DNA of 64,000 bases from NCBI RefSeq assembly GCF_000800015.1, contig NZ_JUGR01000001.1, positions 2,356,001-2,420,000 on the forward strand, read 5' to 3'. The DNA comes from Terriglobus sp. TAA 43. GTDB lineage: Bacteria > Acidobacteriota > Terriglobia > Terriglobales > Acidobacteriaceae. This document shows positions 29,456 to 47,472 of this stretch, in pieces. Made by a program: the position numbers and the translations under genes. How positions within the stretch are numbered: the stretch's first letter is position 1; each line of letters begins with the position of its first letter. The notes below the pieces were generated by a model. It searched no databases and was not told the origin of the DNA. It saw only the letters and a program-made list of their open reading frames with translations.

Positions 29456-29543
29456 CAGTTCCCTCGCACCTACCCATGTTGATGGTACGGTCCCACCGCC
29501 TGTTGAGGGACAATCATGCATCTTCGTAGATACCTGCGATGTG

Positions 29544-30338
29544 TCAGCGAGTCAGATCCACGGCCTGCTGCAACGAAATGTGCGGCGGCACAAGCTTAAT
29601 CTCGCTGCGAACTGCATCCTGATCGCGAGTAAGACTCTTCATCATCAGAATCTTTCCGTCCATGTGGACGACCATGCGAACACTCTTCCACGTATCGGGC
29701 GAAACCTGGCGGCGCTCCAAATGAACGCTGCCACCCTGATTCACCTTGCCCAGCAAGCCAAATCCGAAGGAAACTGGGGTCACGATACGGCTCTGCAACT
29801 CACACAGCCGATCCTCCGGCTCTTTGACGGAGACCGTGCCCTCCATCGCATGCAGCACCTTCTCTTCCATGCTTGCGGGCTGATAGGCGGGATTGGGCTT
29901 GAAACTGTACTGCGAACAACCATTCACGCTGCCGGCAGGCGTCAACACAAACTGCGACGGCAGCGCACCAAGCAGGCTGATCAGATGCTTTTCATCACCC
30001 TGCACCGACGCATTCAATCTTCGGAATGCCTCAGGATCATTGGCAAGCGAGGTAAGACGCCGTTGTTCCGCTGTGGCGGCGTCGGCTGACAGCGGAACGC
30101 CATCCACCTGCAGAAGACGGGCAACCTTACCCTCATCCACTTCCACAACGCGTTCCATCCACAGGTGGCCGCCCGTACGCGGTGAGCGCTCCAGCAGCAG
30201 GAACGAGAAGTGTTCCTTCAGATCAATCCGAGCCTGACGCTCGTTCTCTGCCATCCGCGCAACCGGCGAGCCCTGCGCCCACGCGACCGTTCCTAAAGCA
30301 GCGACGCCTAGCAACACTGCATTCCGAAGTGCCGTCAT
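29544..30338 (-). CDS. Exported protein of unknown function
   Basis: A 264-aa protein with a signal peptide (MTALRNAVLLGVAALGTVAW, cut near AQ). The ribosome site GGGAGAGTG sits directly before ATG 30338; the open frame further upstream is not coding-like. The mature part holds NERQARIDLKEHFSFLLLER, two separated Cys (NGCSQY, RLCELQ), and MVVHMDGKILMMKSLTR near the end. The layout, with a beta-strand series and an EKVLHAMEGT helix, resembles lipoprotein-carrier-like envelope proteins, but no family is recognised. It lies between asnS and ddl on the same strand. Confidence 0.75.
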   Translation of the reverse strand: MTALRNAVLLGVAALGTVAWAQGSPVARMAENERQARIDLKEHFSFLLLERSPRTGGHLWMERVVEVDEGKVARLLQVDGVPLSADAATAEQRRLTSLANDPEAFRRLNASVQGDEKHLISLLGALPSQFVLTPAGSVNGCSQYSFKPNPAYQPASMEEKVLHAMEGTVSVKEPEDRLCELQSRIVTPVSFGFGLLGKVNQGGSVHLERRQVSPDTWKSVRMVVHMDGKILMMKSLTRDQDAVRSEIKLVPPHISLQQAVDLTR

Positions 30339-30477
30339 CACTCTCCCGTTGGCGCCGCAAGTCACTTCACGCTGGTAGTGAGACGGATTCCGATGCCGAA
30401 CCGTGCGTTGCATACCGAAGCAGAAAGGCCGCAACGAAGTTCGTCGCGGCCTCATAAATTAACAGTTGCATATGTAC

Positions 30478-31827
30478 TTACGGATAAATCCGGTTCAGCG
30501 TACGAGCAAACGGAATCGTCTCGCGCACATGCTCCAGCCCGCACACCCACGCCACACACCGCTCAATACCCATACCAAAGCCACTGTGCGGAACCGAACC
30601 ATACTTGCGCAGATCCAGGTACCACTCGAAAGCCTCCAGCGGCAGATCGTGCGACAGGATGCGCTCCTTCAACAGGTCATAGCTATCAATACGCTGCGAC
30701 CCGCCAATGATCTCGCCATATCCCTCCGGTGCCAACACATCCACGCAAAGTGCCTTCGTCGGATCCGCAGGATCAGGCTGCATATAAAACGCCTTCACCA
30801 CCGCCGGATAACGATGCACCATCACTGGCCGGTCAAACTGGTTGCTGATGTACGTCTCGTCCGGCGCGCCAAAGTCGTCGCCATACACATGCGGCTTCTC
30901 AATCGCGCCCTCGGCAAACGCCTTCTCCAACATGGCGTGCGCTTCGTCGTAGCTGATCTTCGGGAACGGAGCCTGAATCTTCTCCAGCTTCGCCGCCTTC
31001 TCATCGCCACCCGTAATCGTCTTCAGGTCAATGCGATGCTTCTCCAACACGCGCATCACAACGTGCGAAAGGAAGTCCTCCGCCAGCTTCATCAGATCGT
31101 CCAGATCGGCATACGCCACTTCCGGCTCAATCATCCAGAACTCAGTCAGATGGCGACGCGTCTTCGACTTCTCCGCGCGGAACGTCGGCCCAAAGCTGTA
31201 CACCTTGCCCAGCGCCAGTGCCGTGGCCTCAATGTAAAGCTGGCCGCTCTGCGTCAGGTACGCATTGCCCTCGTCGAAATACTTCATCTCGAAGAGCTCA
31301 CTGGTGCCTTCGCACGCAGCAGGCGTCAGGATGGGCGGATCGGTACGCGTAAAGTCCTGCGTATCAAAGAACTCCTGAGCTGCCCGCATAATCGTGGCAC
31401 GCACACGGAGAATCGCACTCTGCCGAGGCGTCCGCATCCACAAATGCCGACGCTCCATCAGGAAGTCCGGCCCATGCTCCTTCAGCGTGATCGGGAACGG
31501 CTCATCGGCGCTCACCGCCTGCTGCACCTGCACATTCTCCACGTCCAGCTCATAGCCAGAAGGCGCACGCGAGTCCGCACGCACCTTGCCCGTAACCACC
31601 ACGCTGCTCTCTAACTGCAATTCCTTCAGCGTGTTGAACAGTTCCTCAGGCACAGCCGCCTTGGGAACAATGCCCTGAATCGTACCCGTGCCGTCACGGA
31701 AGGTGGGAAAGAGCAGCTTGCCGCTGGAACGAAGGTTATACAGCCAGCCGCGCAGCGTTACCGTTGCGCCTTCGTGCTGGCCAATGTTCGCAATCGACGT
31801 GAGGGGTGCGGATGTTTCTGTCGCCAT
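30478..31827 (-). CDS. asnS: Asparagine-tRNA ligase
   Basis: A 449-aa class IIb aminoacyl-tRNA synthetase. The N-terminal OB-fold anticodon domain ([19 protein letters not shown]) leads into class II motif 1, motif 2 ([21 protein letters not shown]) and motif 3 ([15 protein letters not shown]). Asn-specific features are [20 protein letters not shown] and the [12 protein letters not shown] block. ATG 31827 has GGGAGATGTT upstream. A direct asparaginylation enzyme here means that not all Asn-tRNA need come from the amidotransferase route. Confidence 0.96.
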
Positions 31828-31960
31828 AACATCTCCCAGTGTATGCGCCCGCTCGCTCGCCAGCCTCCCCAAAGGTGTTATCCCTGCGTTTCCGGGTGGT
31901 ATCCGCACATACCCTGAACGATCCTGATATCAAAGCTTTCAGGCAATGGTGACGCCACCC

Positions 31961-32012
31961 GAATCGCGCGATTCTGGTTCTGTCAGGAGGGCCAGACGCT
32001 CTCCACAGAATC
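31961..32012. promoter_or_regulatory. Palindrome and overlapping inverted repeat
   Basis: A perfect 14-bp palindrome (GAATCGCGCGATTC, 31961-31974) lies between asnS and a small plus-strand ORF. Its right part, GATTCTG at 31970-31976, also pairs with CAGAATC at 32006-32012. It could be an operator or a leader structure of the small ORF; which one is unknown. Confidence 0.4.
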
Positions 32013-32028
32013 AGGAGAAACGCCCCCG

Positions 32029-32121
32029 ATGCATGATCTTCTCGTAGCAGTCGCCTTCCTTGGTATGATCCTCGCCCCCTGCGCCGTAGCGTCCTTCGCC
32101 GGCAGCACCACCGAGGCATAA
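32029..32121 (+). CDS. Hydrophobic peptide, 30 aa
   Basis: A very short frame encodes MHDLLVAVAFLGMILAPCAV followed by a short Ser/Ala/Thr tail. It has AGGAG 11 bases upstream of the ATG, begins with one membrane-spanning or signal-like stretch, and is followed 17 bases later by a strong terminator. These three points suggest a small expressed unit, but the length makes chance possible. No family is recognised. Confidence 0.4.
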   Translation: MHDLLVAVAFLGMILAPCAVASFAGSTTEA

Positions 32122-32138
32122 GCGACTCACAAGCCCCC

Positions 32139-32175
32139 AAAGCAAAAGGCCGGCATCAAGCCGGCCTTTTGCTTT
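32139..32175. terminator. Intrinsic terminator
   Basis: A perfect 15-bp stem (32139-32153 with 32161-32175) encloses a 7-base loop, with A-rich and T-rich outer arms so that it works in both directions. It separates the 30-aa ORF from the HxlR regulator gene. Confidence 0.85.
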
Positions 32176-32194
32176 GCCCTGAAACCCTGCACAG

Positions 32195-32593
32195 TTAAGC
32201 CGTCTTCTGTGCCACCTTCGCCCGGTGCGCCATCACGCGGCCAACATTGCTCTCGATGTACGCCGCCAGCGACAACATTCTCTCCGCCACTTCGCTGCCC
32301 ATCTCCGTCAGGCTGTACTCCACCTTCGGCGGCTTCGTTGCATGCACCGTGCGCAACACAAACCCATCCTGCTCCAACGCGCGCAGCGTCTGCGCCAGCA
32401 TCTTCTCACTCACGCCGCCAATCAGGTACGCCAGTTCGCTGAAGCGATAGCTGCCATCCTTGTGCAGCAGCACCAACACCAGCGATCCCCAGCGCGACGT
32501 CACATCGTCAAGGATGATGCGCGTCGGGCAATCGGAAGAAAACAGGTTGCCCTTCCGGATGCGAATTGTCTTGGTACTCTTCGGCCACGCCAT
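32195..32593 (-). CDS. HxlR-family transcriptional regulator
   Basis: A 132-aa winged-helix DNA-binding protein of the HxlR/MarR-like class. Cys22 in SSDCPTRIILDDVTSRWGSL is the conserved redox- or electrophile-sensing Cys of many HxlR proteins; RFSELAYLIGGVSEKMLAQTLRALEQDGFV is the recognition helix-turn-helix and VEYSLTEMG the wing. It is divergent from the quinone reductase-like gene with 96 bases between, where two inverted repeats lie. It probably represses that gene and itself until quinones or thiol-reactive agents modify the Cys. Confidence 0.9.
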   Translation of the reverse strand: MAWPKSTKTIRIRKGNLFSSDCPTRIILDDVTSRWGSLVLVLLHKDGSYRFSELAYLIGGVSEKMLAQTLRALEQDGFVLRTVHATKPPKVEYSLTEMGSEVAERMLSLAAYIESNVGRVMAHRAKVAQKTA

Positions 32594-32603
32594 GCATACA
32601 GCT

Positions 32604-32634
32604 TACCTATAGGTATGTACTTACTACAAGTAAG
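32604..32634. promoter_or_regulatory. Candidate HxlR operator: two inverted repeats
   Basis: TACCTATAGGTA (32604-32615) is a perfect 12-bp palindrome, and CTTACTACAAGTAAG (32620-32634) has 5-bp arms around five bases. They lie 11 bases upstream of the regulator start and 56 bases upstream of the target. The second site resembles the TACT-N-AAGTA style known for YodB/HxlR-type operators of Bacillus; equivalence here is inferred. Confidence 0.55.
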
Positions 32635-32689
32635 CCACTAGGGATACGCTTGCCTCATACACTCCGCTACGGCGGAAGGGAGAGACATA

Positions 32690-33562
32690 ATGATTGCTGT
32701 CACCGGAGCCAACGGCCACCTTGGAACACTTGTCGTAGAGGGCCTGCTTCAGAAAGTCCCTGCAAACCAGATCGTCGCGGCCGTTCGCACACCATCCAAA
32801 GCGAAAGCATTCGCAGACAAGGGCGTGCAGGTCCGTGAAGCCGACTACGGACGCCCGGAAACGCTCGACGCGGCCTTTGCTGGTGTAACGAAACTCCTGC
32901 TCATCTCCGGCAATGAACTCGGCCAGCGCATAGCGCAGCATCAAGCTGTGATCGACGCAGCAAAGCGCGCCGGAGTTCGCCTCATCGCCTACACCAGCCT
33001 CCTGCACGCTGACACCGGTGGACTCCTGCTCGCGGAAGAACATCTGGCCACGGAGAAATACCTTCAGGCCAGCGGCATCCCCTTCGCCTTCCTGCGCAAC
33101 GGTTGGTACACAGAAAATCTCACGCCCGGCATAGGCCCCGCACTGCAGCAGGGAGCCTTCATCGGCGCCACAAAAAACGGCCGTCTAGCCGCTGCAACCC
33201 GCGCAGAATACGCTGCAGCAGCGGTGGCCGTACTCACCGGCGAGAGTCATGAAAACAAGGTGTATGAACTCGCAGGCGACACAGCATTCACCCGCGCAGA
33301 GTTCGCCGCAGAAGTCAGCAAACAAACCGGCAAGGCCATTGGCTATCACGACCTGCCGGAGCAGGAATACGAGAAGATCCTCGCCACCTTCCTGCCGCCC
33401 GCCCTCGCAACAATCCTGGCAGACGCTGAAGCAAAAGCCGCAAACGGCGCGCTCGATGACAACTCGCACACGCTAAGCCGTCTCATCGGCCGCCCCACAG
33501 AGCCACTCGCGGACACGATCGCCGCTGCACTAAAAGCACCTGTCGCCAACAGCACCCACTAA
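32690..33562 (+). CDS. NmrA/QorB-like NAD(P)H-dependent oxidoreductase
   Basis: A 290-aa atypical short-chain dehydrogenase. MIAVTGANGHLGTLVVEGLL holds the nucleotide-binding GxxGxxG, and the following AAVRTPSKAKAFADKGVQVREADY, KLLLISGNELGQRIAQHQAV and FLRNGWYTEN match E. coli QorB (YtfG), an NADPH:quinone reductase. GGAAGGGAGAGACATA precedes the ATG. It is controlled, by position, by the divergent HxlR regulator. A terminator follows the gene. Confidence 0.88.
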   Translation: MIAVTGANGHLGTLVVEGLLQKVPANQIVAAVRTPSKAKAFADKGVQVREADYGRPETLDAAFAGVTKLLLISGNELGQRIAQHQAVIDAAKRAGVRLIAYTSLLHADTGGLLLAEEHLATEKYLQASGIPFAFLRNGWYTENLTPGIGPALQQGAFIGATKNGRLAAATRAEYAAAAVAVLTGESHENKVYELAGDTAFTRAEFAAEVSKQTGKAIGYHDLPEQEYEKILATFLPPALATILADAEAKAANGALDDNSHTLSRLIGRPTEPLADTIAAALKAPVANSTH

Positions 33563-33593
33563 GCCAGCGGGTAGCGTTCAAAATGAAAAAAAG

Positions 33594-33631
33594 AAAGTAA
33601 AAGGCCGGCATCTGCTGGCCTTTTACTTTTT
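33594..33631 (+). terminator. Intrinsic terminator
   Basis: A 13-bp stem (33594-33606 with 33617-33629) is followed by T residues. It ends the QorB-like gene and, being A/T-flanked on both sides, may also act for the minus-strand gene that ends at 33642. Confidence 0.8.
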
Positions 33632-33641
33632 CCAAGAACTT

Positions 33642-34487
33642 TTAATTGCGGACAGGCTCTTCCAACATCGCAAACGCCTTTGCAGCCTTCGCGCTCATCG
33701 CCTTCGCATCGATCTCCGGCTCGTACGCAATCTCCAGCGTCCCCACCGGCTCATGCTTCAACCCTGCAACGCCCTTGCGCACAGCATCCCAGTCCACGGT
33801 GCCCTCGCCCGGCCACAGGTGCTCATCCTTCTCACCTTGGTTGTCATGCAGATGCAGTTCACGAATCCGATCGCCCAACACGGCAAACGCACTCTCCACG
33901 CCGCCCATGTCGTGCAGATTCACATGCCCAATATCCAGGCACACGTGCACGGTATCCAGATGCGCAATGCGCAGCATCTCCTTCAGGTGTTCCGGGGTGG
34001 TCACATCGTTGTGCAACGTCTCCACCAGCGTCTTCACTCCCAGCGGATGTGCAAATGCCTTAATGTGTTCCACCGCCGTCATCGACAAATCCAGCGAGCG
34101 CTCGCTCCACGTATCATTCGCCGTGCCCAGGTGCAGCACAATGCTGTCGATATCGATCTGCTCCGCTGCTTCCAGAGCGCGCTTCACCTCATCCATCGCA
34201 TCAATGCGGCGTGACTTCTCCACATCAATCAGGTTGATGGTCGCTGGAACATGGCGGCTCCAGTCGGAAGCTCGCGACTCAAAGATGGGCTGGTGCAGCG
34301 TCGCGCGGCAGTCATTGCTGCGGAACCACTTCGCCAGTTCCTTCACTTCCGCGCGATCGGTGTAATCAAAATGGTGCCGAGCAGCAAACAGCTCAATCGA
34401 CTGCGCACCCGCCGCCACCATTGCATCCAGCAGGCCAGCGTGCAGCCGTTGTTGCAGAAAAACATGCGTACTAATTGACCGCTTCAT
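33642..34487 (-). CDS. Sugar phosphate isomerase/epimerase-like TIM-barrel protein
   Basis: A 281-aa protein of the xylose isomerase-like TIM-barrel (AP endonuclease 2) superfamily. Metal ligands are suggested by VLHLGTAND, LVETLHND, VCLDIGHVNLHDMGG, IRELHLHDNQGEKDEHLWPGEG and the final TLEIAYEP. These match the family in which Glu, Asp, His and Glu hold a divalent metal. ATG 34487 has AGGGGTG upstream. The substrate is not predictable. Confidence 0.87.
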   Translation of the reverse strand: MKRSISTHVFLQQRLHAGLLDAMVAAGAQSIELFAARHHFDYTDRAEVKELAKWFRSNDCRATLHQPIFESRASDWSRHVPATINLIDVEKSRRIDAMDEVKRALEAAEQIDIDSIVLHLGTANDTWSERSLDLSMTAVEHIKAFAHPLGVKTLVETLHNDVTTPEHLKEMLRIAHLDTVHVCLDIGHVNLHDMGGVESAFAVLGDRIRELHLHDNQGEKDEHLWPGEGTVDWDAVRKGVAGLKHEPVGTLEIAYEPEIDAKAMSAKAAKAFAMLEEPVRN

Positions 34488-34519
34488 CACCCCTGACCAT
34501 AGCAGGCCGCAAAGCATAC

Positions 34520-34543
34520 GGGGGAACCATTGAAGGTTCCCCC
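34520..34543 (-). terminator. Hairpin, probable terminator of the GDSL gene
   Basis: A 9-bp perfect stem (34520-34528 with 34535-34543) with a 6-base loop lies 17 bases after the GDSL hydrolase stop. The T-tract on the minus strand is weak, so termination may be partial. Confidence 0.5.
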
Positions 34544-34560
34544 GCCTCACCTTGTTCGAT

Positions 34561-35361
34561 TTACTTGCCGATCGTCTTGTCGATGGCCGCCTGCGCCAGC
34601 GGCTGCATAATCGCATATCCCGCCGGCGTGGGGTGCACACCATCCTTCGCCAAATCGGGCTTCATGCCACCCGTCGGCGACGTAAGCGCCGAGTAGTAGT
34701 CCAGATACGTGTACCCGTGGTCCTTACAGAACTGCTGCATCCACGTATTCATCGTGCGGATTTTGTCCGCCGGCTGCAAACCCCGACGCCACGGGTAATC
34801 GTCCACCGGCAGCACGCTCGCCAGGATCAGCTTGATGTGGTTCGCATCCGCAATCGCCGCCATCGAACGGAAATTGTCCTGAATGTGCTCCAGCGACTCA
34901 ATGCCCGTATTGCCTGCAATGTCATTCGTTCCCGCCAGGATCAACACCGCTGCAGGCTTCAGAGCGACCACATCCTGCTGAAAACGCACCAGCATCTGCG
35001 GCGTCGTCTGCCCACTGATACCGCGGTCCAGATACGGCTTGCCCGGAAAGAACGTCGGCTTATTAAGAGCGCCGTTGCCCCAAGCATCGGTAATGCTGTC
35101 GCCAAAAAACACCACGCGATCCTTCGGCGCAGGCGGCAACGCGGCATTCGCACTCGCATAGCGAGCCAGGTTCGCATAGTCCGCCAGCTTCTTCTGCAGG
35201 CCCAGAATCTCATTCGGCGTCAGCGTCGAAGGATCCTTCACCAACACCGCATCAATCGGCTTCGGAGCCTCGGCAGGTGCAGCCGCAACCTGAGCCAGCA
35301 AAGCCGTACTAACCACCAAAGTGGTCGCGGTAACGAGTGCAACATTGCGCATGAACGACAT
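34561..35361 (-). CDS. Exported SGNH/GDSL-family hydrolase
   Basis: A 266-aa secreted esterase- or acetylxylan-esterase-like enzyme. It has a signal peptide (cut near VAAAP), block I VVFFGDSITDAWG with the catalytic Ser, block II RGISGQTTPQ (Gly), block III LILAGTNDIAG (Asn) and block V DGVHPTPAGY with the catalytic Asp-x-x-His. It is related to platelet-activating factor acetylhydrolase-like proteins of carbohydrate-degrading bacteria. The substrate is probably an acetylated sugar, by analogy only. Confidence 0.92.
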   Translation of the reverse strand: MSFMRNVALVTATTLVVSTALLAQVAAAPAEAPKPIDAVLVKDPSTLTPNEILGLQKKLADYANLARYASANAALPPAPKDRVVFFGDSITDAWGNGALNKPTFFPGKPYLDRGISGQTTPQMLVRFQQDVVALKPAAVLILAGTNDIAGNTGIESLEHIQDNFRSMAAIADANHIKLILASVLPVDDYPWRRGLQPADKIRTMNTWMQQFCKDHGYTYLDYYSALTSPTGGMKPDLAKDGVHPTPAGYAIMQPLAQAAIDKTIGK

Positions 35362-35477
35362 GATTCGCGTGCTTCTCCTGTGTGCAGGCCAGTGTACGAA
35401 GCCGAACCACGCCAGCGCAATCCATCAGAAATCAGGCACAGTGAAATTGCGGTGATGGAAGCCGTTTATGGCGAAAT

Positions 35478-36656
35478 TTAACGTGCGGGAACGCCGCCCC
35501 CGCTCCACACCGTGGAGATGCGTATGCTCAGATCGATGTATTCGCGGTCCGCAATGATTGCGCGTGTGAGCAGTTTGCGATGCCGCTTGCCCGGCAGTTG
35601 GGAGATCATCCAGCCCCATGCGGCCTTCGCGGGCTCGGTAAGATCGATGCCCACTCCTGGCAGTTTCAGTCCAACGACATCAGCCACTGTAGTTTTGATT
35701 TCGACCTTCGGAAAAGGAATGCCTGCGAGTTTACCTTGGATCGCAGCTGCGATACGCTCCACTTCGCGAGTGCGTTCCGTAGCGATACGTCCGTTGCGCT
35801 TGAAGTCTTCCAGCGCCTCGCCGAGCCACGCACGATAATCGCTGACCTCGGGGCTCTTGCGATACTTCATCGCGTTCGTCAACAGCTCGGCAGGATTATT
35901 GCTTTCGCTCAGCAGCAGTGGAAAGAATGTGGGCGTGTACGGAATCTCCGCGGCAGGTCTGCCTGTGAGCTCACCAAGTTTGGTGAACAAGTAGTCTTCA
36001 GCGCCGCGCGCCGTGTCTTGCTTGAGCGTGAGCGCCAGGAACAGGCGCGAACGCTTGGGCTGCATCAGGTGGTCAGTACCAGCCAATTGCGCATAGCCTC
36101 CGAAGATCAATCCTCCCAGAATGTATGCAGCCAGCCGCTGCTCATCGGGGTTTTCAAAGTGGAGGTCGCCCAAGTTGGGATACCAGGCGTAACCCGAAGT
36201 GGTGAGTTCGCCCACAATGGAAGCCAGATCCGTTAAAACCTCATGAGCCTGCTCTCCGCTCACTCCGGCCACCCCGCCCTTATAGAACGTGGTCAGTTCC
36301 GCGAGCGCTGCATTCTTCACGTCCATGTAGGCGTCATGGCCCACGTTGACGTTCACCAACACTTCCTCGTTCTCATTGATCGCAGCAAGTGTGCGTCTCT
36401 CAAACGGCATGTCCACGTCGAACGTAGTGGAGTAATCGAAAACAGGAATCTGGTTTTCAAGGATCAGGCGATCAAAGAACGTACCCAGCGCATGGATGTT
36501 CTTGGTGAGTAGGTCCCAGGCGGAGTTCTGATCGTAAGTATTGGCGGAGCCGCGAAGAAAGACCTCTCCGCAGCGAAGAATCATGGGATCAACGACCGGT
36601 CCGCCGATGGCGGCGATGGATTGCCAATCTTCCCGCTTTTCAACCAGGAGAGGCAT
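35478..36656 (-). CDS. 392-aa protein of unknown family
   Basis: No family is recognised. ATG 36656 is chosen because GGAG lies eight bases upstream; the frame is open back to GTG 36773, but that leader is a leftover of an exporter gene (see the repeat at 36745). There is no signal peptide or membrane helix, so it is likely cytoplasmic. It is rich in helices, with a central YILGGLIFGGYAQLAGTDHL, a basic C-terminal part (GKRHRKLLTRAIIADREY) and a beta-strand end. It lies alone, with gene-free gaps of about 115 bases before the GDSL gene and about 260 bases before the divergent transglutaminase-like gene. Confidence 0.75.
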   Translation of the reverse strand: MPLLVEKREDWQSIAAIGGPVVDPMILRCGEVFLRGSANTYDQNSAWDLLTKNIHALGTFFDRLILENQIPVFDYSTTFDVDMPFERRTLAAINENEEVLVNVNVGHDAYMDVKNAALAELTTFYKGGVAGVSGEQAHEVLTDLASIVGELTTSGYAWYPNLGDLHFENPDEQRLAAYILGGLIFGGYAQLAGTDHLMQPKRSRLFLALTLKQDTARGAEDYLFTKLGELTGRPAAEIPYTPTFFPLLLSESNNPAELLTNAMKYRKSPEVSDYRAWLGEALEDFKRNGRIATERTREVERIAAAIQGKLAGIPFPKVEIKTTVADVVGLKLPGVGIDLTEPAKAAWGWMISQLPGKRHRKLLTRAIIADREYIDLSIRISTVWSGGGVPAR

Positions 36657-36744
36657 AGCGGTGACTCCGTAATGGTGTTCTAAGCCCGAATACCGCAAGT
36701 GATAACACCTCGCGCGGGCAAAGTCCATCAGCCTTAACCTTAAA

Positions 36745-36775
36745 TGCGCGTCCAGCGTAATTTTTCCAACCACCT
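36745..36775 (-). repeat. Partial copy of the 3' end of the EmrB/QacA exporter gene
   Basis: These 31 bases match 37867-37897, the last ten codons of the neighbouring exporter gene, with 29 identities. Read in the exporter frame both give VVGKITLDAH. The two mismatches inside the match and one more just beyond it (CAC to CAT) all fall at third codon positions and change no residue. The copy then runs past where the exporter stop would be. It is best seen as the remnant of a diverged exporter homologue. Confidence 0.8.
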
Positions 36776-36915
36776 ACACCGCGGCGCGACGGACTGAGGG
36801 CGATCTCCTCAAAGGGAAACCGCGATCGTCCAACAGCGCATCAAACCACCGCTGATGTGCGCCGATGAAATCTCTTGAGAGGCGAGGGAGACCGTCCCTT
36901 CCCCGAAGAATCCAT

Positions 36916-37821
36916 ATGAAGATCAAGTCCGAATTTGATATCCAGTTTCACATTCCAAGACAGACCCCGGTCGTTGCCGTATTACACGTCCACCCTTCCG
37001 TGGAGAGCAAACTTCTATCCGCTGACACCCTCAGGGTCGAACACATTGTTGCAGCGGATGAACGGCTGGAACCAATCCCGCTGCAGGTATCACCGTACAT
37101 TGACAGTTTCGGAAATCGCTGTTCACGTTTCGTCGCTCCAGAAGGAGCAGTCCGTCTTTCCGGGTCCCATCTAATGGAACTCTCAGACACACCTGATCCG
37201 CAGGGAGAGGGACTTGGCCAGACACCCATCGAAGACCTTCCCGACGAAGCGCTGCAGTTCCTGCTCGCCAGCCGCTATTGTCAGGTCGACGAATTCGGCG
37301 CCATTGCCGCCGAACTTTTTGGTAGCACCAGGCCCGGTTGGGAGCGCGCAGCCACAATCCGCGACTGGGTACATAGCAAGGTCACTTTCAACTACAACGC
37401 GGCGCGATCGACCAAAACAGCGATGGACGTGTTCACGGAGCGCGTTGGGGTCTGTCGCGATTTTCAACATCTTGCGATCACGCTCACTCGAGCGCTAAAC
37501 ATTCCAGCCCGCTATGTCACGGGTTATCTGGGAGATATTCGCGTCCCCTATGCCGGCCCCGGCGATTTTTCGGCGTGGTATCAGGTTTGGCTCGATGGCC
37601 AGTGGTGGAACATGGACGCACGGCACCACACGCCTCGGCTCGGCCGCATCCCGATGGCTTTCGGCAGGGACGCTGCGGACGTGGCTATCACCACGAGCTT
37701 CGGCTTAGCGGAATTGACTCACTTCCATGTTGAATCGAACGAGGTCGATTCTGATGGACGTCCTGTGCCTCTGCCAACCGGCGCGGATGCAAATGCCACC
37801 TCTCCAATCGCTCCGCAGTGA
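36916..37821 (+). CDS. Transglutaminase-like protein with Ser in place of the catalytic His
   Basis: A 301-aa protein of the transglutaminase-like (cysteine protease fold) superfamily. An N-terminal beta domain (IQFHIPRQTPVVAVLHVHPS) precedes the core, where Cys180 lies in VGVCRDFQHLAITLTRAL and Asp234 in WWNMDARHH. The position between them that normally reads D-F-H-A-W reads DFSAW (Ser219). The tail GRIPMAFGRDAADVAITTSFG is family-typical. It is the only plus-strand gene between the 392-aa gene and the exporter, and both copies of a 31-bp repeat flank it. It may be a non-catalytic member, or a subfamily with a different His. Confidence 0.85.
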   Translation: MKIKSEFDIQFHIPRQTPVVAVLHVHPSVESKLLSADTLRVEHIVAADERLEPIPLQVSPYIDSFGNRCSRFVAPEGAVRLSGSHLMELSDTPDPQGEGLGQTPIEDLPDEALQFLLASRYCQVDEFGAIAAELFGSTRPGWERAATIRDWVHSKVTFNYNAARSTKTAMDVFTERVGVCRDFQHLAITLTRALNIPARYVTGYLGDIRVPYAGPGDFSAWYQVWLDGQWWNMDARHHTPRLGRIPMAFGRDAADVAITTSFGLAELTHFHVESNEVDSDGRPVPLPTGADANATSPIAPQ

Positions 37822-37862
37822 GTGCGGGCACGGATCGGCATGGCGCCATCCAAACCGTCTCG

Positions 37863-39590
37863 CTAGTGCGCGTCCAGCGTAATCTTCCCAACCACCTTCG
37901 GCGGCCGCTTTAACAACAGCACCATGGGCAACAAACACGCCAGAATATAAGCGAACAAACGGTACTGATCCATATACGCCAGTAACAGCGCCTGCTGCTG
38001 CACCTGGTGGTACAGCAACGCCATACCGTCATACGTCTTATCCATCGCAGCGCCGCCAATCGCAGCGCCCGCAGACTTGATCTGCTGCATCACACCCGGC
38101 GAAGACGAAGTAATGTCCGCACTCAAGTACGTCTGGTGCGCCTGCGTCATGCGTTGCAGAAACGTACTCGACAGCGCAATACCGATCGATCCACCCTCAT
38201 TACGCACCAGCGCATAAATGCCCGCGGCATTGCTGCTCTGATCCGCAGGCAGAAAGCGGAACATGATCGTCGACAACGGCACCGTCGTCATACCCAGCCC
38301 CATCACCTGCAACACACGCGGCCAGATGAAATTGCTCTCCGCCGCATTCAGATTGCCCAGCGACAGCCAGTAAGTTCCCGCAGTCATGGTGATAATGCCG
38401 CACGCAATCAACCGTCGCGCATCCGTGCCTTTGCTTAGCAACCAACCCACCAGTGGAACTTCCAGCATCGTCACCAAACCGGCAGGCGACACAGCAATAC
38501 CCGCAGTCGTTGCGTCATAGCCCATCAACTCCTGCATGAACTGCGGCAGTAGAAACGTCGTCGCATACAGCGCCGTGTACATGCCCAGCACAATCACGCA
38601 GCAGAACAGGAAGTTGCGTTCCTTCAACAACCGCAGATTCACCACCGGGTTCTTCACATGCAGTTCCCAGACGATGGCGCCCACCACTGCCACCACGGCG
38701 ACGATCGTGCTCCACAGGATGAAGCTGTTACCAAACCAGTCCAGCTCTTGTCCGCGATCCAGCACAATCTCCGTCGCCGCAAGACCAATGCTCACCAGCG
38801 CCAGACCCGTGCCATCGATCTGTATTGGCTTACCCTTGCGAGCTTCGCGAGCCTTCGTCAGGTGCGGCGGATCATGCAACACCATGCGCGTGAAGAACGC
38901 ACACAAAATACCCACAGGAATGTTGATGTAGAAGATCCAGCGCCAAGAATAGTTATCCGTAATCCATCCGCCCAGCGTTGGCCCAAGCACCGGCGCACAT
39001 AGGATCGCCACGGTATACACAGCCATAGCCATGCCGCGCTTCTCACCAGGAAACGCATCCGCGAGAATCGCCTGCACACTCGGTTGCAAACCACCGCCCG
39101 ACAATCCCTGCAATACGCGGAACACCACCAGCGCGCCAAGCGTCGGAGCAATGCCGCACGCCGCAGAAAAGATAGTGAAGAGAATTACCGATCCAAGATA
39201 AAAATTGCGCCGACCAAGAACACTTGAAATCCATCCGCTGATCGGCAGAATGATCGCATTCGCAACCAGGTAGCTGGTCAGCACCCAAGTGCTCTCATCC
39301 TGCGAAGCAGAAAGGCTGCCCGCAATATGTGGCAACGCCACGTTCGCAATCGAGGTATCCAGTACCTCCATGAACGTGCCCATCGTCACCACCAGCGCAA
39401 TAATCCACGGATTAAACACCCGCGGTTCGGGCGCACGCGCCAGCGGCACTCCCGGTTCAAACTCTGCAGCAGAGGGAGCAAGCGCCGTCTCAGCGCGGTC
39501 CATCACCTCTTCCGCATGATGCAACGATGACGCCCCGTGCGACTCTTCCGCAGGCGGCAAAGCGTTTTCTTCATCCTGTAATGACTGCAT
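37863..39590 (-). CDS. DHA2-family drug:H+ antiporter (EmrB/QacA type)
   Basis: A 575-aa major-facilitator exporter with 14 predicted helices. An N-terminal acidic cytoplasmic stretch of about 60 residues precedes WIIALVVTMGTFMEVLDTSIANVALPH (motif D1), LTSYLVANAIILPISGW, GRRNFYLGSVILFT (motif A region) and PVLGPTLGGWITDNYSWRWIFYINIP (motif C), as in EmrB. It probably expels hydrophobic toxic compounds. No EmrA-like adaptor gene is next to it. It is divergent from a TetR regulator gene, with inverted repeats overlapping its start, and its last ten codons are duplicated at 36745-36775. Confidence 0.93.
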   Translation of the reverse strand: MQSLQDEENALPPAEESHGASSLHHAEEVMDRAETALAPSAAEFEPGVPLARAPEPRVFNPWIIALVVTMGTFMEVLDTSIANVALPHIAGSLSASQDESTWVLTSYLVANAIILPISGWISSVLGRRNFYLGSVILFTIFSAACGIAPTLGALVVFRVLQGLSGGGLQPSVQAILADAFPGEKRGMAMAVYTVAILCAPVLGPTLGGWITDNYSWRWIFYINIPVGILCAFFTRMVLHDPPHLTKAREARKGKPIQIDGTGLALVSIGLAATEIVLDRGQELDWFGNSFILWSTIVAVVAVVGAIVWELHVKNPVVNLRLLKERNFLFCCVIVLGMYTALYATTFLLPQFMQELMGYDATTAGIAVSPAGLVTMLEVPLVGWLLSKGTDARRLIACGIITMTAGTYWLSLGNLNAAESNFIWPRVLQVMGLGMTTVPLSTIMFRFLPADQSSNAAGIYALVRNEGGSIGIALSSTFLQRMTQAHQTYLSADITSSSPGVMQQIKSAGAAIGGAAMDKTYDGMALLYHQVQQQALLLAYMDQYRLFAYILACLLPMVLLLKRPPKVVGKITLDAH

Positions 39591-39617
39591 AGTCAGTGCA
39601 ATGACTCTCCGGTCATT
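39582..39617. promoter_or_regulatory. Candidate TetR operator: two inverted repeats
   Basis: TGACT-GCAT-AGTCA (39582-39595) overlaps the exporter start codon, and AATGAC-TCTCCG-GTCATT (39600-39617) follows immediately. Both share the TGAC/GTCA half-site and lie in the gap between the exporter and the divergent TetR gene, as expected for binding by that regulator. Confidence 0.6.
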
Positions 39618-39698
39618 AGAGACCGCAAAAGGTTCATCGGATGCAACGAACTCGTGAAAACGTGCAAGCCCTTACAAGCGAATCCCTTACGATCAAAG

Positions 39699-39763
39699 GT
39701 CATCAGCGAAGCTCATACGCACGAAATGCGTACCCAGCGAAGCTCCTACGATCGAAGATCGTC
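39699..39763. repeat. Two tandem copies of a small-hairpin intergenic repeat
   Basis: CAGCGAAGCTCATACG (39704-39719) and CAGCGAAGCTCCTACG (39735-39750) each run into a hairpin: TACGCA-CGAAA-TGCGTA at 39716-39732 and ACGATC-GAA-GATCGT at 39748-39762. The flanking unit recurs at 51811-51826. The stems differ in sequence but keep pairing. Confidence 0.75.
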
Positions 39764-39812
39764 ACCAAACAAAGAATCTAAGCCCCAACAACCGTGTTAG
39801 TTTGGGGCAGGA

Positions 39813-40433
39813 ATGGCCGTCTCAGAATCGACGAAAAAATCCACCCGCCTCGCCTCGCGCAAACAGGTCCTCACCGACCTGCGCCGCAGCGAAATCATCG
39901 AGGCCGCGCTCAAAGTCTTTGCCCGCAAAGGCTTCCATCACTCGCGCACGGAAGACGTCGCCACCCAGGCCCACATCGCCAAGGGGACGCTCTACCTCTA
40001 CTTCGATTCGAAAGACGCCATCTACGACGCTGCCTTGCAGCACGCCATCGACAGCCTCTCCGAGCTTTCCGACGAGCGCGTCGCAGCCGCGAAAGACACA
40101 CGCAGTCGCGTCGAAGCCTGGATCCACACACGCCTCGATTTCTGGTGCTCCCGCGGCGACATGTACCATATGATCCTCACCGTCGGCCGCGAAACCCGGC
40201 ACCGCAAACAGACCGCAACGCTCCTTCGCTCCGCACAACGCAGCTTCGTCGACATCCTTCAGCAGGCAGTCGATGCAGGCGACCTTCCGCCGCGCGATCT
40301 CAGCGCCATCGGCTGGCTCGTAATGGACGCCATCCGAGGCTCCAACGAACGCCGCATCCTCAATCTCTGCGAACGCGACATCTCCCGCGACACCGCCATC
40401 ATCGTCGACACCGTCATGCGCTACTTCGCATAG
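39813..40433 (+). CDS. TetR/AcrR-family transcriptional regulator
   Basis: A 206-aa repressor-type regulator. The N-terminal helix-turn-helix reads RSEIIEAALKVFARKGFHHS and THIAKGTLYLYFDSKDAIY-like AHIAKGTLYLYFDSKD; the remaining 140 residues form the variable ligand-binding domain. It is divergent from the EmrB/QacA-type exporter with about 220 bases between, so it is the likely ligand-sensing repressor of that gene. A terminator follows. Confidence 0.93.
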   Translation: MAVSESTKKSTRLASRKQVLTDLRRSEIIEAALKVFARKGFHHSRTEDVATQAHIAKGTLYLYFDSKDAIYDAALQHAIDSLSELSDERVAAAKDTRSRVEAWIHTRLDFWCSRGDMYHMILTVGRETRHRKQTATLLRSAQRSFVDILQQAVDAGDLPPRDLSAIGWLVMDAIRGSNERRILNLCERDISRDTAIIVDTVMRYFA

Positions 40434-40453
40434 CTCGACATAGATACAAACAA

Positions 40454-40478
40454 AACGGCCCGCGCAAAGCGGGCCGTT
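40454..40478. terminator. Intrinsic terminator
   Basis: A 10-bp perfect stem (40454-40463 with 40469-40478) with a GCAAA loop lies between the TetR gene and a convergent small gene; A/T bases flank both sides, so it can act in both directions. Confidence 0.75.
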
Positions 40479-40503
40479 CGTCTTGGAGATTTACTGAAGA
40501 AAC

Positions 40504-40662
40504 TTAACGAAGCGAAGCGCTACTCACGGCAAGGTTCGATTCCTGATCGGTAGCCATGCCAACACTCTGCACCGGAGAAGTCGTGGGAACCACACGCGCC
40601 GTCATCACAAGCGCCGCATCCAGAACAAGAACCGTGGCCAGCATCCATTTGAAAAGATTCAT
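40504..40662 (-). CDS. Small membrane-anchored protein, 52 aa
   Basis: A 52-codon frame beginning with ATG 40662 behind a near-ideal ribosome site (AAGGAGGAAGACG). The product starts MNLFKWMLATVLVLDAALVM, a signal-anchor or uncleaved signal peptide, followed by about 30 polar residues (Ser, Thr, Ala, Val rich). No family is recognised. It is a monocistronic unit between two terminator-like or gene-free stretches, upstream of nothing on its strand except the TetR terminator. Confidence 0.6.
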   Translation of the reverse strand: MNLFKWMLATVLVLDAALVMTARVVPTTSPVQSVGMATDQESNLAVSSASLR

Positions 40663-40778
40663 CGTCTTCCTCCTTCCGTCTTCATAAGCAGACTAGAAGT
40701 AAGATGCCTCCGGAACCATTCCCAAAATCTCCCCAAACCGAGCAAAAAGTGCCTTTTACGGTTCCAAAACTGCCCAAT

Positions 40779-42908
<2,130 letters not shown>

Positions 42909-43361
42909 CTAAGAAATGATGCCGCAGTCGGGCCAATGATCTGGTGCCACCCATGCCTGCCGCGCTTCGGCGTTCTTCACCACGTCAAAGTTATAAAACC
43001 GTTGATGCAGATCTCGCCTGCCGCCATACAGAGTCACAGCTCGCTGCACAAACATCAGATGCGACGCTGCCTGCTCCTCGTCATGCAGTCGTGCCAGCAC
43101 CGCAATCCAGAAACGCGTCAGCGTCTCGTGGTATCCGCTCGTATCGGAGTTCACAGTACCAACCGACTCGTTGTAAGCGCGAACACGCCGACGCATCGTC
43201 TCCAGCGCAATCTGTTCACCGTGCAAACAAACGTAATTCGCGCCCACAGCCACATGCGCGGCATGCGTCCACGCAGGCTTCGGCAGACTTCCCGCCTCAA
43301 ATGCCTGCACCAACAAATGCAAATCATTCTGCGTATCGATTACCGGCAAGCTGCTGGCCAT
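42909..43361 (-). CDS. Conserved protein of unknown function
   Basis: A 150-aa soluble protein. Conserved-looking elements are KPAWTHAAHVAVGANYV, with a His pair, and SGYHETLTRFWIAVLARL, which recall an unnamed bacterial family with paired H-x-x-H and GYHET segments, possibly a helical metal-binding fold. No function is known. ATG 43361 is preferred to a TTG seven codons upstream. It lies 21 bases before ligA on the same strand and may share its transcript. Confidence 0.75.
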   Translation of the reverse strand: MASSLPVIDTQNDLHLLVQAFEAGSLPKPAWTHAAHVAVGANYVCLHGEQIALETMRRRVRAYNESVGTVNSDTSGYHETLTRFWIAVLARLHDEEQAASHLMFVQRAVTLYGGRRDLHQRFYNFDVVKNAEARQAWVAPDHWPDCGIIS

Positions 43362-43400
43362 GCAGCCATTATCTCGCGGCAACGTGTATCCTTGCGCTCA

Positions 43401-44486
43401 ATGGAGCCCGTTACCCACATGCTGACGGGCGCATGCCTCTCGCGTGCGCTGGGTTTACCTGCAAAGGTCCGCTACGCAACCGTCGCCTGCGTCATCGCCG
43501 CAGAGATACCGGATGCCGACTACGTCTATCGCCTCGGCGGCCCACTCACTTACTTCCAGCACCATCGCGGATGGACACACGCGCTCTGGTCACTGCCTCT
43601 GCAAGCCGCAGTCATCACTGCTGCTTTTTACTTCGTCCATCGAATGCAGAAGCAGCGCCCGCAACGCCATGCCAACGATGTCCCCACGAACTGGCCATTG
43701 CTGTTCGGCCTATGCCTCCTGGCCCTGCTCAGTCATCTGCTTCTCGACTGGACCAACAACTACGGCATACGTCCCTTCGCACCGTGGAATCCGCGCTGGT
43801 ATTACGGCGACCTCATCTTCATCGTCGAACCGCTGCTGCTCCTGTTCCTCGGCGGGGCGTTGATCCTGCCACTGCTCCTCTCCTTAATCAATGGTGAGAT
43901 CGGCGCAAACAAACCGCGTTCCGCAGGCCGAGGGTTGGCCGCAACGGCGCTCATCCTCATGGCTGCGCTCTGGGGCTACCGCTACATGCAACACAGCGAT
44001 GCCAAAACGCAGGCGCGCCACCAGGACTACCGCAGCGGGCCGGTGCGGCGCATCGGCGTGAACCCATACCCTATCAATCCCTTCCGTTGGTTCGTGGTGG
44101 CCGAAACCGCATCCGCAATGGAGATGGGCCGTTTCGACAATCGCACCAACACCTATGACACCGACACCATGCACGCGCTATCCAAACCGCCCGTAACGCC
44201 AGCCGTTGCAGCCGCAAAGCAAAGCTGGCTGGGCCGCGTGTATCTCGACTGGGCACGTTTCCCCATGGTCGAAGATCGCGGCACCGCAGAGCAGGTGCAT
44301 CCTGAGATGGATCTCGATCCGCAGGAACGTACCTGGCACGTGGTGGGGTTCACCGATCTGCGTTTTGGCTACCCGGTACTGGGCATGAGCGGCAGCACCG
44401 CCCCACTGGGCGCGGAAGCCTGGGTCGATGCCACGCAGCACGTCCAGCGTGTATTTCTGGGCCGAACCGAACAGAAACTTCCGTAG
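43401..44486 (+). CDS. YdjM/DUF457-type membrane metal-dependent hydrolase-like protein
   Basis: A 361-aa membrane protein. The N-terminal part carries PVTHMLTGACLSRA, AAEIPDADYVY and FQHHRGWTHALW, whose His and Asp residues mark the DUF457/YdjM family of inner-membrane, putative metal-dependent hydrolases. Four or five helices cover residues about 30-215, and the last 150 residues form a soluble domain. The in-frame stretch before ATG 43401 is a shadow of the neighbour. The physiological substrate is unknown. Confidence 0.87.
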   Translation: MEPVTHMLTGACLSRALGLPAKVRYATVACVIAAEIPDADYVYRLGGPLTYFQHHRGWTHALWSLPLQAAVITAAFYFVHRMQKQRPQRHANDVPTNWPLLFGLCLLALLSHLLLDWTNNYGIRPFAPWNPRWYYGDLIFIVEPLLLLFLGGALILPLLLSLINGEIGANKPRSAGRGLAATALILMAALWGYRYMQHSDAKTQARHQDYRSGPVRRIGVNPYPINPFRWFVVAETASAMEMGRFDNRTNTYDTDTMHALSKPPVTPAVAAAKQSWLGRVYLDWARFPMVEDRGTAEQVHPEMDLDPQERTWHVVGFTDLRFGYPVLGMSGSTAPLGAEAWVDATQHVQRVFLGRTEQKLP

Positions 44487-44519
44487 ATCGCGCCATCGCC
44501 ACTGTGGGAGAATAGAGAC

Positions 44520-45071
44520 ATGGCCTACCTGGTGCTCCTGATCGCTATCCTGAGTCGTGTGCTGCCGCGGTTGCTGCACGTCACTGGCGGCAATGTGACC
44601 ACCGTGGGCGCGTCGCTGTTGTTCTTCGGCGCATGCCTGGCCAGCGGAAAGCGTTGGCACGCAGCCTTAGCTGTAGTGGCCCTTGCAGCCACGGACTGGT
44701 GGCTTACTGTATTTGGGTACGGCTACGCCTTCCATCTCAGCGGCTACATCGTCACATGGCTCTGGTATGCCGCTGTGATCCTTGCAGCTTCCGTAACGCT
44801 GCATCGTAAGCACTCGTGGCTTGGCGTGGGCATGGCCGCGCTGGCATCTGCCACAAGCTTTTTCCTGTTGAGCAATTATGTGGTCTTCCTGCGCAGCGGC
44901 ATGTATCCGCATACTTTGGAAGGTCTCATCACCTGCTACACAGCAGCGGTGCCGTTCTACCAGAACGACTTGATCTCCACGCTGCTGTTCTCGGGCCTGT
45001 TCTTCCTGCTGCCCACCACCGAAAGCATTCCGGGATTGGCTGGCACGTCCTTCCGCAAGAATGCGGCGTAA
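44520..45071 (+). CDS. DUF6580-like membrane protein
   Basis: A 183-aa integral membrane protein with five or six helices. The order GGNVTTVGASLLFFGACLASG, ATDWWLTVFGYGYAFHLSGY, SFFLLSNYVVFLRSGMYP and LEGLITCYTAAVPFYQNDL matches the DUF6580 family, which resembles the substrate-binding subunits of ECF transporters. No ECF ATPase is nearby, so transport is only suspected. It follows the YdjM-type gene by 33 bases and precedes another small membrane gene by 15, forming a likely operon. Confidence 0.8.
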   Translation: MAYLVLLIAILSRVLPRLLHVTGGNVTTVGASLLFFGACLASGKRWHAALAVVALAATDWWLTVFGYGYAFHLSGYIVTWLWYAAVILAASVTLHRKHSWLGVGMAALASATSFFLLSNYVVFLRSGMYPHTLEGLITCYTAAVPFYQNDLISTLLFSGLFFLLPTTESIPGLAGTSFRKNAA

Positions 45072-45086
45072 ACAGGGGTCGTTGTT

Positions 45087-45383
45087 ATGCTGAGCCGCAA
45101 TCTGTACATTCTGGCGGCAACACTTATTGTGTTCTCCTTGCTCTGTTATGTGCTTGGGTTCACCGGCATCACGCATGAGGTGGGTGCTCCATCCGATAGC
45201 AGCCTGTGGCGCACCATCGGCATTGTTCTGCTGCTGCTGGGCCTGTTCGTAGCTCTGTTAGGAGTCTTGCAGGGCATGTTCGAGCAGGCGGAACGTCGCA
45301 CGCCCGGCGGACAGGCAAACATCCATCGTGAACATCTGCGCCAGCGCGATAGCGGAAAGAACGAGCGCAAGCGCCGCGGCTAA
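45087..45383 (+). CDS. Two-helix membrane protein, 98 aa
   Basis: A short protein with two membrane helices (NLYILAATLIVFSLLCYVLG and TIGIVLLLLGLFVALLGVLQ) and a basic cytoplasmic tail (HREHLRQRDSGKNERKRRG). No family is recognised. It is 15 bases downstream of the DUF6580-like gene, so probably co-transcribed and possibly a partner of it. The 71 bases between it and queD hold a CACCGCGGTG palindrome at 45425-45434. Confidence 0.65.
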   Translation: MLSRNLYILAATLIVFSLLCYVLGFTGITHEVGAPSDSSLWRTIGIVLLLLGLFVALLGVLQGMFEQAERRTPGGQANIHREHLRQRDSGKNERKRRG

Positions 45384-45454
45384 AGCCGCTGCAACAAACG
45401 AAACGGAATCCTGCACCTGCACACCACCGCGGTGCATCTCTTGAAGGAACTGCT

Positions 45455-45832
45455 ATGTACGAAGTAACCGTCGAATCTCACTTCTCATCCGGACACTACC
45501 TGCGCGACTATCACGGCAAGTGCGAGAACCCGCACGGCCACAACTATCGCGTGCTGGTGACGCTTGCCGGTGAAGAGCTGGAACCGAACGGATTGCTGCT
45601 GGACTTCAAAATCCTGAAGGACATTCTGAAGCCCGTGGTGAACTACCTGGACCACCAGATGATTAACGATCTGGAGCCGTTCACCACTGTGAATCCCTCT
45701 GCAGAAAACCTGGCCAAATACTTCTTCGACGAGACGAACACACGCCTCTCTGATGTAACCAAGGGCCGCGTGCGCGTGAAGAGCAGCACCATCTTCGAAA
45801 CGAACACATCGCAGGCCACGTACGCGGAGTAA
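45455..45832 (+). CDS. queD: 6-carboxytetrahydropterin synthase
   Basis: A 125-aa enzyme converting 7,8-dihydroneopterin triphosphate to 6-carboxy-5,6,7,8-tetrahydropterin for queuosine. Zinc ligands His14 (HFSSGHYL), His27 and His29 (NPHGHNY), the catalytic Cys23 (GKC) and the LDHQMIND and SAENLAKYFF elements are present, matching the QueD branch of the PTPS family. GAAGGAACTGCT precedes the ATG. It leads queE by six bases, a clear pair. Confidence 0.96.
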   Translation: MYEVTVESHFSSGHYLRDYHGKCENPHGHNYRVLVTLAGEELEPNGLLLDFKILKDILKPVVNYLDHQMINDLEPFTTVNPSAENLAKYFFDETNTRLSDVTKGRVRVKSSTIFETNTSQATYAE

Positions 45833-45838
45833 CGACCA

Positions 45839-46540
45839 GTGCGCCTCATCGAGCTTTACAAATCCGTTCAGGGCGAATCGTCGTTCACCGGCGTGCCATG
45901 CATCTTCGTGCGCTTTGCCGGATGCAACCTGCGCTGCGCCTGGTGCGACAGCGAATACACCTTCACCGGTGGCAAGCCGTTCACTGAAGATGAAGTTGTC
46001 GCGCAGATTGAAGCACTCGCGTGCCCGCTGGTTGAGTTCACCGGCGGTGAGCCCATGCTGCACGCAAAAGATCTTCTGCCGCTGATGCAGCGACTGCTGA
46101 ATGACGAAAAAACGAAATACACGCTGATGATCGAAACCAGCGGCGAACGCCCGTTGGAAGAAGTCCCTACGGCAGTACATAAAATCGTCGATGTGAAATG
46201 CCCCGGCAGCGGCAGCGCCTTCGGCTCATTCCGCATGAGCAACCTCAACACGCTCACCGCTCGCGACGAAGTAAAGTTCGTCCTCCGCGACCGCCGCGAC
46301 TACGAATTTGCACGCGACTTCATCCGCGAACATCTCGCAGCAAAAATCGCAGACGGAACGCTGGGCCATATCCTGCTTTCACCGGCATTTATCCAGCACC
46401 CTTCCCCGCTACGCACCGCAGACAACATGGAATTGGACGCACGCGACCTGGTGCAGTGGATGCTCGACGACCTCCTCCCCGCGCGCCTCTCCCTGCAGGT
46501 GCATAAATTCGTGTGGGAACCGCAAAAAAAGGGAGTTTAG
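45839..46540 (+). CDS. queE: 7-carboxy-7-deazaguanine synthase
   Basis: A 233-aa radical-SAM enzyme that turns 6-carboxytetrahydropterin into 7-carboxy-7-deazaguanine. The cluster Cys29, Cys33 and Cys36 lie in FAGCNLRCAWCDSE, the CxxxCxxC spacing of radical SAM enzymes; VEFTGGEPMLHAKDL is the SAM-binding GGEP motif, and ELYKSVQGESSFTG opens the protein as in QueE. It begins with GTG six bases after queD. The next enzyme, QueC, is encoded about 6 kb further on. Confidence 0.96.
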   Translation: MRLIELYKSVQGESSFTGVPCIFVRFAGCNLRCAWCDSEYTFTGGKPFTEDEVVAQIEALACPLVEFTGGEPMLHAKDLLPLMQRLLNDEKTKYTLMIETSGERPLEEVPTAVHKIVDVKCPGSGSAFGSFRMSNLNTLTARDEVKFVLRDRRDYEFARDFIREHLAAKIADGTLGHILLSPAFIQHPSPLRTADNMELDARDLVQWMLDDLLPARLSLQVHKFVWEPQKKGV

Positions 46541-46607
46541 CGACACCCGGATAACCATTTGTCGGTGATTGCACTCAAGGTTCAGATGGGATTGGAAAGG
46601 TGCGCTC

Positions 46608-47306: not shown

Positions 47307-47392
47307 TACTGCTTCGAACACAAACCGATAAGGGTGTGTCGGATACAAGGCAGAGTCCACCACCGCATCACGGTTACAGTCGCGTGCAGACC

Positions 47393-47405: not shown

Positions 47406-47472
47406 TGAGCGTTTTCGTGTCCTTTTCCCGAGGGCCAACGCCCCGATTGCAGGACAGTAAGGAACCTGCACC

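Follow-up and report, generated by a model that had tools for sequence, protein, structure and literature searches.

Analysis of a 64,000-nucleotide stretch of Terriglobus sp. TAA 43 (contig NZ_JUGR01000001.1; hereafter the window) revealed that the last codons of a gene for a DHA2/EmrB-type MFS exporter occur twice, as a direct repeat with a convergent transglutaminase-like gene between its copies (Table 1). A sister genome (G003; the window's own genome is G000) likewise has a transglutaminase gene at this position, none was matched at E ≤ 1e-30 in the next relative (G008), and a segment with a 392-aa gene beyond the second tail is specific to the window among the genomes searched. It appears reasonably likely that a cassette of about 1.1 kb with a replacement exporter end was inserted here and displaced the old end, that this old end later collapsed in G003, and that DNA beyond it was replaced by the 392-aa gene in the window.

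Table 1. Features around the exporter 3′ end, in window positions.
Feature	Positions	Strand	Basis or remark
Segment without counterpart at this place in G003	35438..36783	.	Alignment with G003
P0003, 392-aa gene without detected relatives	35478..36656	-	ATG at 36656, GGAG before it
3′ flank of copy 2 (TTTAAGGTTAAGGC...)	36727..36744	-	Similar to the G003 junction CTAAAGCTAAGGC
Repeat copy 2 (AGGTGGTTGGAAAAATTACGCTGGACGCGCA)	36745..36775	-	Read as displaced exporter 3′ end
Putative inserted cassette, between the tail copies	36776..37866	.	1122 bases together with one repeat copy
Transglutaminase-like gene (Transglut_core), convergent to the exporter	36865..37821	+	Pfam PF01841, E 7.3e-22
DHA2/EmrB-type MFS exporter gene, 575 aa, ending VVGKITLDAH-TAG	37863..39590	-	Pfam, NCBIfam
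Repeat copy 1	37867..37897	-	Present 3′ end of the exporter
TetR-type regulator gene, divergent from the exporter	39813..40433	+	

The duplicated exporter tail

Self-comparison of the window bore out the repeat that the preliminary description had placed at the exporter 3′ end, with 29 of 31 bases identical and a spacing of 1122. In the exporter frame (minus strand) both copies encode VVGKITLDA and then the H codon up to its second base. As had also been claimed, the differences are all third-position changes: two fall within the 31 bases (GGA/GGG and AAA/AAG) and a further one just outside them (CAT/CAC). Copy 2 has no in-frame stop at this point and reads CAT TTA AGG, like CAT-TAA with one extra T.

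The repeat scored 48.2 bits, whereas the best pairs in 10 first-order Markov sequences of the window's length reached 32.8–39.2, and a degenerate tail 27-mer (up to 3 mismatches) had just two hits in the window and no hit across 100 shuffles; these two controls refute chance similarity, which has the small size of the repeat and nothing else in its favor and can practically be dismissed. A 26-mer of the same kind, again with up to 3 mismatches, matched exactly 2 places in the window's own genome. It hit G003, G008, and G016 once apiece and G005 not at all, so that this search found no second tail in G003 or G008. A pattern for the last tail codons was found in 6 of 398 family genomes, twice in the window's own genome and once in each of the others. 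Because the tail occupies only these two places in the window and in its genome, with no third, it is not a dispersed repeat, the alternative that had been raised earlier, and is instead tied to the exporter.

Were these ten codons to change at random, two changes would both be silent with p 0.079 and three would all be silent with p 0.019 (0.12 and 0.04, respectively, with transitions making up nearly all changes), and the synonymous-only pattern alone therefore carries little weight. The pattern itself holds, but it is a weaker sign of a functional origin than the preliminary description had taken it to be.

The exporter was assigned by Pfam (MFS_1, E 1.9e-61) and NCBIfam (TIGR00711, 434 bits with a cut-off of 230), and close relatives of it occur in 10 other genomes of the same genus at 73–98% identity. 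Its nearest counterparts among 41 genomes, the window's own included, are those of G003 (98%) and G008 (96%). Informative sites in the exporter gene group G000 with G003 (33 versus 17 and 13, with G005 as outgroup), and the same grouping is obtained where G005 and G016 agree (16 versus 9 and 6).

Over the 31 bases the best match to copy 2 is the local exporter (29/31), and the other exporters match at 28/31 (G008), 27/30 aligned (G003), and 26/28 aligned positions (G016). The exporter of G016 equals copy 2 over its last seven codons (AAA to CAT), with TAA where the copy has TTAA; it is closer there to copy 2 than the local gene is, and it differs more further upstream. An exporter homologue closer to the copy than the local gene, as had been anticipated, thus exists for the last seven codons but not for the 31 bases as a whole. 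The codons of copy 2 fit no single relative: GGA is shared with G003 and G008 (the local exporter has GGG), GCG with six of the ten exporters compared, and CAT and TAA with G016 and G017. Copy 2 is also no closer to insertion-free G008 than to the window's exporter. Among the best 80 matches of an exporter search in genome_contigs, the ends of 4 were inspected; these included two further close ends (L119 and L128), and by eye none of the 4 beat the local gene in likeness to the copy.

The transglutaminase cassette and its borders

The stops of the exporter and the transglutaminase gene are separated by 41 bases, and the latter gene, the sole sizeable one found in the cassette, likely starts at the ATG at 36916 (MKIKSEF). 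Window positions 36784–37866 align with G003 at 92.7%, and in that genome (L053) the exporter is likewise followed at the same site by a convergent transglutaminase gene whose protein is 90% identical. In G008 a glyoxalase-family gene comes next after the exporter; no transglutaminase match was found in this genome at E ≤ 1e-30, and the cassette is not beside its exporter. The suggestion of a single-gene cassette downstream of the exporter is supported by these genomes. Because the transglutaminase gene is at the same site in G003 and the G008 exporter is without it, the exporter 3′ end probably received a cassette of about 1.1 kb before the window and G003 separated. We infer insertion rather than loss, and the state of G008 could alternatively have arisen by loss of the gene.

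Of the 41 genomes, 17 gave a transglutaminase match at this threshold, usually at another location. The exporter-site genes of the window and G003 group together (95/90), and sister to the two (98/96) is a second G003 transglutaminase gene, frameshifted, at about 1.24 Mb (L061 9618–10707). Among the other transglutaminase genes, those of G005 and G012 lie in a common neighborhood, a part of which G007 also has in common with G012; the second G003 copy has only the gene itself in common with these three loci. The location of the transglutaminase gene appears to shift within this lineage.

The cassette begins directly behind the intact exporter end, so that one of its borders lies in sequence homologous to the resident gene, and at the far border copy 2 abruptly follows the upstream DNA of the transglutaminase gene (36775–36784). 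G003 is collinear with the window over 28649–35437 and 36784–47307. The two agree up to ...CAGTCCGTCGCGC, in the upstream region of the transglutaminase gene, after which the window has CGCGGTGT and the tail copy (...GACGCGCATTTAAGGTTAAGGC), whereas in G003 ACTAAAGCTAAGGC precedes a hairpin and TTTT. At the end of homology (window 36784), GCGC-ACTAAAGCTAAGGC of G003 and GCGC-ATTTAAGGTTAAGGC of the copy are equal in 15 of 19 columns, and if the 38 bases between two GCGC tetranucleotides of the window are omitted, the window reads GCGCATTTAAGGTTAAGGC and G003 GCGCACTAAAGCTAAGGC. The G003 sequence past the upstream region of the transglutaminase gene, GCGCACTAA, looks like the last bases of an exporter end with a similar 3′ flank, and it reads like a gene end in the exporter direction (CAC TAA).

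This junction match is short and was spotted post hoc in the data. An equally good prefix alignment was obtained at 20 or 4 sites, depending on which of two scorings was used, of 5335 GCGC sites in the window, G003, and G008 stretches, a number that includes the two junction sites themselves, and of 53312 positions sampled from 80 kb of G003, 68 gave a prefix match as good. These counts speak for the match. On the other side, local alignments of the flanks with equal scores are common, both for random 60-mers (2905 of 20000) and for 60-mers starting with GCGC (674 of 3917). A fuzzy search of the compared loci, in which the tail end and its flank together could carry up to 4 edits, returned the window's own copy only and not the G003 site.

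Past the TAA in G003, read in the exporter direction, lies a G+C hairpin with TTTT after it (z −2.4, with 6 of 200 shuffles as stable); a stronger hairpin lies behind the exporter stop of G016 (z −4.7). The G003 hairpin is absent from the terminator scan list. As a candidate relic of the ligA or TetR terminator it led to a hairpin in G008 that is similar but not clearly related, and this assignment was rejected. Rfam gave no match in 35300–38200.

Because the 3′ flank of copy 2 resembles G003 at the same junction, the displaced tail is taken, with moderate confidence from sequence comparison, to be the resident exporter end and to predate the separation of the window and G003. The fragment at 36745 had been described as an imported piece, which the resemblance, itself moderate evidence, does not bear out. 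The reverse polarity is likelier, with the copy as the original end and the cassette as the carrier of the replacement.

The order of events and its alternatives

In the history that we favor, the 31 bases would be the former 3′ end of the exporter. Before the separation of the window and G003, about 1.1 kb of DNA would have been inserted precisely where the exporter gene ends, bringing a replacement for the last exporter codons followed by the convergent transglutaminase gene. The exporter would have stayed intact because the incoming end codes for the same residues, and the old end, comprising the last ten codons or so, the stop, and the 3′ flank, would have been pushed to the far side of the transglutaminase gene. 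The most likely mechanism is one-sided homologous recombination, or an equivalent insertion. In such recombination the resident exporter would pair with the exporter part of a donor fragment, and the fragment's opposite end would be joined slightly inside the resident tail, through a short stretch of homology or none. G003 may later have lost 38 bases, which make up most of the displaced tail, between the two GCGC tetranucleotides, and in the window lineage the stretch beyond the tail would have been replaced by the unrelated 392-aa gene. No jump in divergence of the kind expected for a donor piece was seen at the exporter 3′ end in 200-column steps, and no recombination breakpoint was visible along the gene; at this step size a donor segment only some dozens of bases long would escape notice. 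Because no donor-like stretch emerged at this resolution, the mechanism remains inferred.

The segment with the 392-aa gene P0003 is replaced in G003 by 2445 other bases that carry metallo-beta-lactamase-superfamily and acetamidase-family genes. The open frame of P0003 extends back through copy 2 (a 431-aa ORF, 35478–36773), so that automatic annotation may start the gene inside the tail. Its codon-position GC (0.62/0.43/0.66) is like that of the exporter, the GDSL gene, and ligA, and P0003 is in this respect an ordinary gene here. Relatives of P0003 were sought in the 41 genomes, own included, and in 396 genomes of the phylum, and each search returned the window's own genome only; the expected arrangement of an exporter directly followed by the 392-aa gene was accordingly found in none of them. 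None was confirmed in genome_contigs (24 pattern stretches) or viral_contigs (2 stretches), where the scans reach close relatives only, and nothing was found in plasmids, phages, PDB sequences, Pfam, NCBIfam, or PADLOC; PHROGs gave two matches only (E 0.28 and 0.37). The single-sequence AlphaFold model has a mean pLDDT of 34.8 and plays no part in any reading.

These data bear on the strongest alternative, in which the tail fragment arrived together with the 392-aa gene from a species that has an exporter homologue directly before that gene, with the joint falling 31 bases inside the donor exporter. The copy and the gene do lie together in one segment that is absent from G003, the differences from the local exporter are silent, and the last seven codons of the G016 exporter equal the copy, all of which would fit such an import. 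We nevertheless consider it unlikely, although a serious candidate, as a tail-like remnant is present at the same junction in G003 without the 392-aa gene, and P0003 itself is confined to its own genome among the relatives and the phylum genomes searched.

Insertion of the cassette at the exporter end can also be compared with integrative islands, which are known in the 3′ ends of protein genes such as icd and guaA. Islands at gene ends leave a restored gene end, a displaced end at the far border, and silent changes, and the layout at the exporter is the same. The locus could thus be the remnant of a site-specific integrative element that used the exporter 3′ end as its att site and restored it synonymously, with the tails as attL and attR and with contents shrunk to one cargo gene; the direct repeat at both cassette borders has the form of such a pair. 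This origin is improbable: unlike the icd and guaA islands, the locus has only one cargo gene and no integrase was found nearby. PF00589 is absent at E ≤ 1e-6 from the window and from all sequence within 100 kb of the exporter in G000 and G003, and genome-wide it has 12 matches in G000 and 9 in G003, the nearest of the latter about 120 kb from the exporter. No integrase was recognized by eye among the ORFs listed for the 5.5 kb downstream of the exporter in the 10 relatives. Terminal inverted repeats of a transposon or insertion sequence were not found, as none of the 16 inverted pairs in the window has arms at both ends of the cassette; 31 bases is longer than the usual target-site duplications of such elements.

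Still less probable is a by-product of chromosome rearrangement, in which staggered breaks at inversions with an edge at the exporter end duplicated the tail. The region is indeed rearranged among the window, G003, and G008, and in each of them a shared block has its edge at, or right next to, the exporter end; in G006, G017, G009, and G002 the exporter faces ligA instead. A staggered inversion, however, yields inverted copies, whereas the copies here are direct; two matched events would be needed, the transglutaminase gene between the copies would be left unexplained, and neither G003 nor G008 has a second tail that the 26-mer search could find.

Turnover of the exporter flank and comparable systems

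The 3′ neighbor of the exporter varies among the relatives. According to alignment, ligA faces it in 4 of 10 (G002, G006, G009, and G017), and the other 6 have different neighbors, as judged by eye from the listed ORFs; the ligase was named by Pfam in the window, and among the neighbors in the 10 relatives only that of G008 was scanned with Pfam. Together with the TetR-type regulator gene, the exporter is inverted relative to ligA in the window (37863–42887), G003, G005, and G008. The blocks 16384–27965 and 27976–35423 have swapped order in G008 relative to the window, with the first inverted, and the rearranged region has an edge near the exporter end. An acetamidase-family gene adjoins an aldo/keto reductase gene in the window (16365–17669) and in G008 (L054 8063–9367); in G003 the acetamidase-family gene (L053 11711–13015) is inverted and lies beside the transglutaminase site.

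Smaller repeats were also noted in the window. A 110-base repeat (47049/47911) was considered as a second case of tail duplication and rejected, as it belongs to a pair of adjacent Crp/Fnr-type regulator genes (46569–48174) that are 72% alike over this stretch; the second gene is missing at this place in G003 according to alignment, and both are present in G008. Imperfect palindromes at 32138–32176, 33594–33629, and 18783–18816 (88–92%), the first two of which are 86% alike, may belong to one small hairpin-repeat family. Repeats of the type CGAAGCTCATACG are dispersed and lie at 39699–39765 and 51784–51898 in the window and around 9400–9960 of L054 in G008.

This high-turnover flank is the background of the scar, and it is also the basis for a bolder reading, in which the exporter 3′ end is a recurrent, integrase-free landing place where single-gene cassettes are swapped and the last codons are silently restored. 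If this were true, the gene end itself would act as the homology anchor, a makeshift attachment site for repeated cassette swaps. The duplicated exporter tails that bear on this number one, the case described here, and we regard recurrence as doubtful.

The single insertion that we favor has counterparts in known processes. One-sided homologous recombination can produce such a layout of intact gene end, new gene, and old end; the process, homology-facilitated illegitimate recombination, has reportedly been described in three naturally competent species, of Acinetobacter, S. pneumoniae, and P. stutzeri. A study of E. coli conjugation describes it there (PMC3240628). As in that process, one end of the cassette would be anchored by homology and the other joined without it, a conserved gene gains a new neighbor, and some of the old sequence may be left. 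The process has been described from laboratory events, whereas the present one is known from its outcome in sequence, with no donor genome found. A second parallel comes from the T6SS effector/immunity arrays of Vibrio cholerae and from orphan Rhs 3′ regions, in which a new module shifts the old 3′ end downstream and one-sided homologous recombination is proposed for the shifted-back effector ends of V. cholerae (PMC5361080). The insertion of a module at a conserved gene with the old 3′ end downstream is alike; the new ends there differ from the old in sequence, whereas here the same ten residues are encoded and the cargo is an unrelated gene.

The recombination scar is thus ordinary in kind and its history is partly readable; it is not a new system. 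Such scars can rarely be read because the relatives needed for it are missing, and an order of events can be proposed here because two close relatives are available. These relatives suggest that a conserved gene can gain a neighbor and have its end silently replaced, here with no mobile-element enzyme found in the vicinity, and the locus provides a worked example of the turnover of conserved-gene flanks in soil Acidobacteriota.
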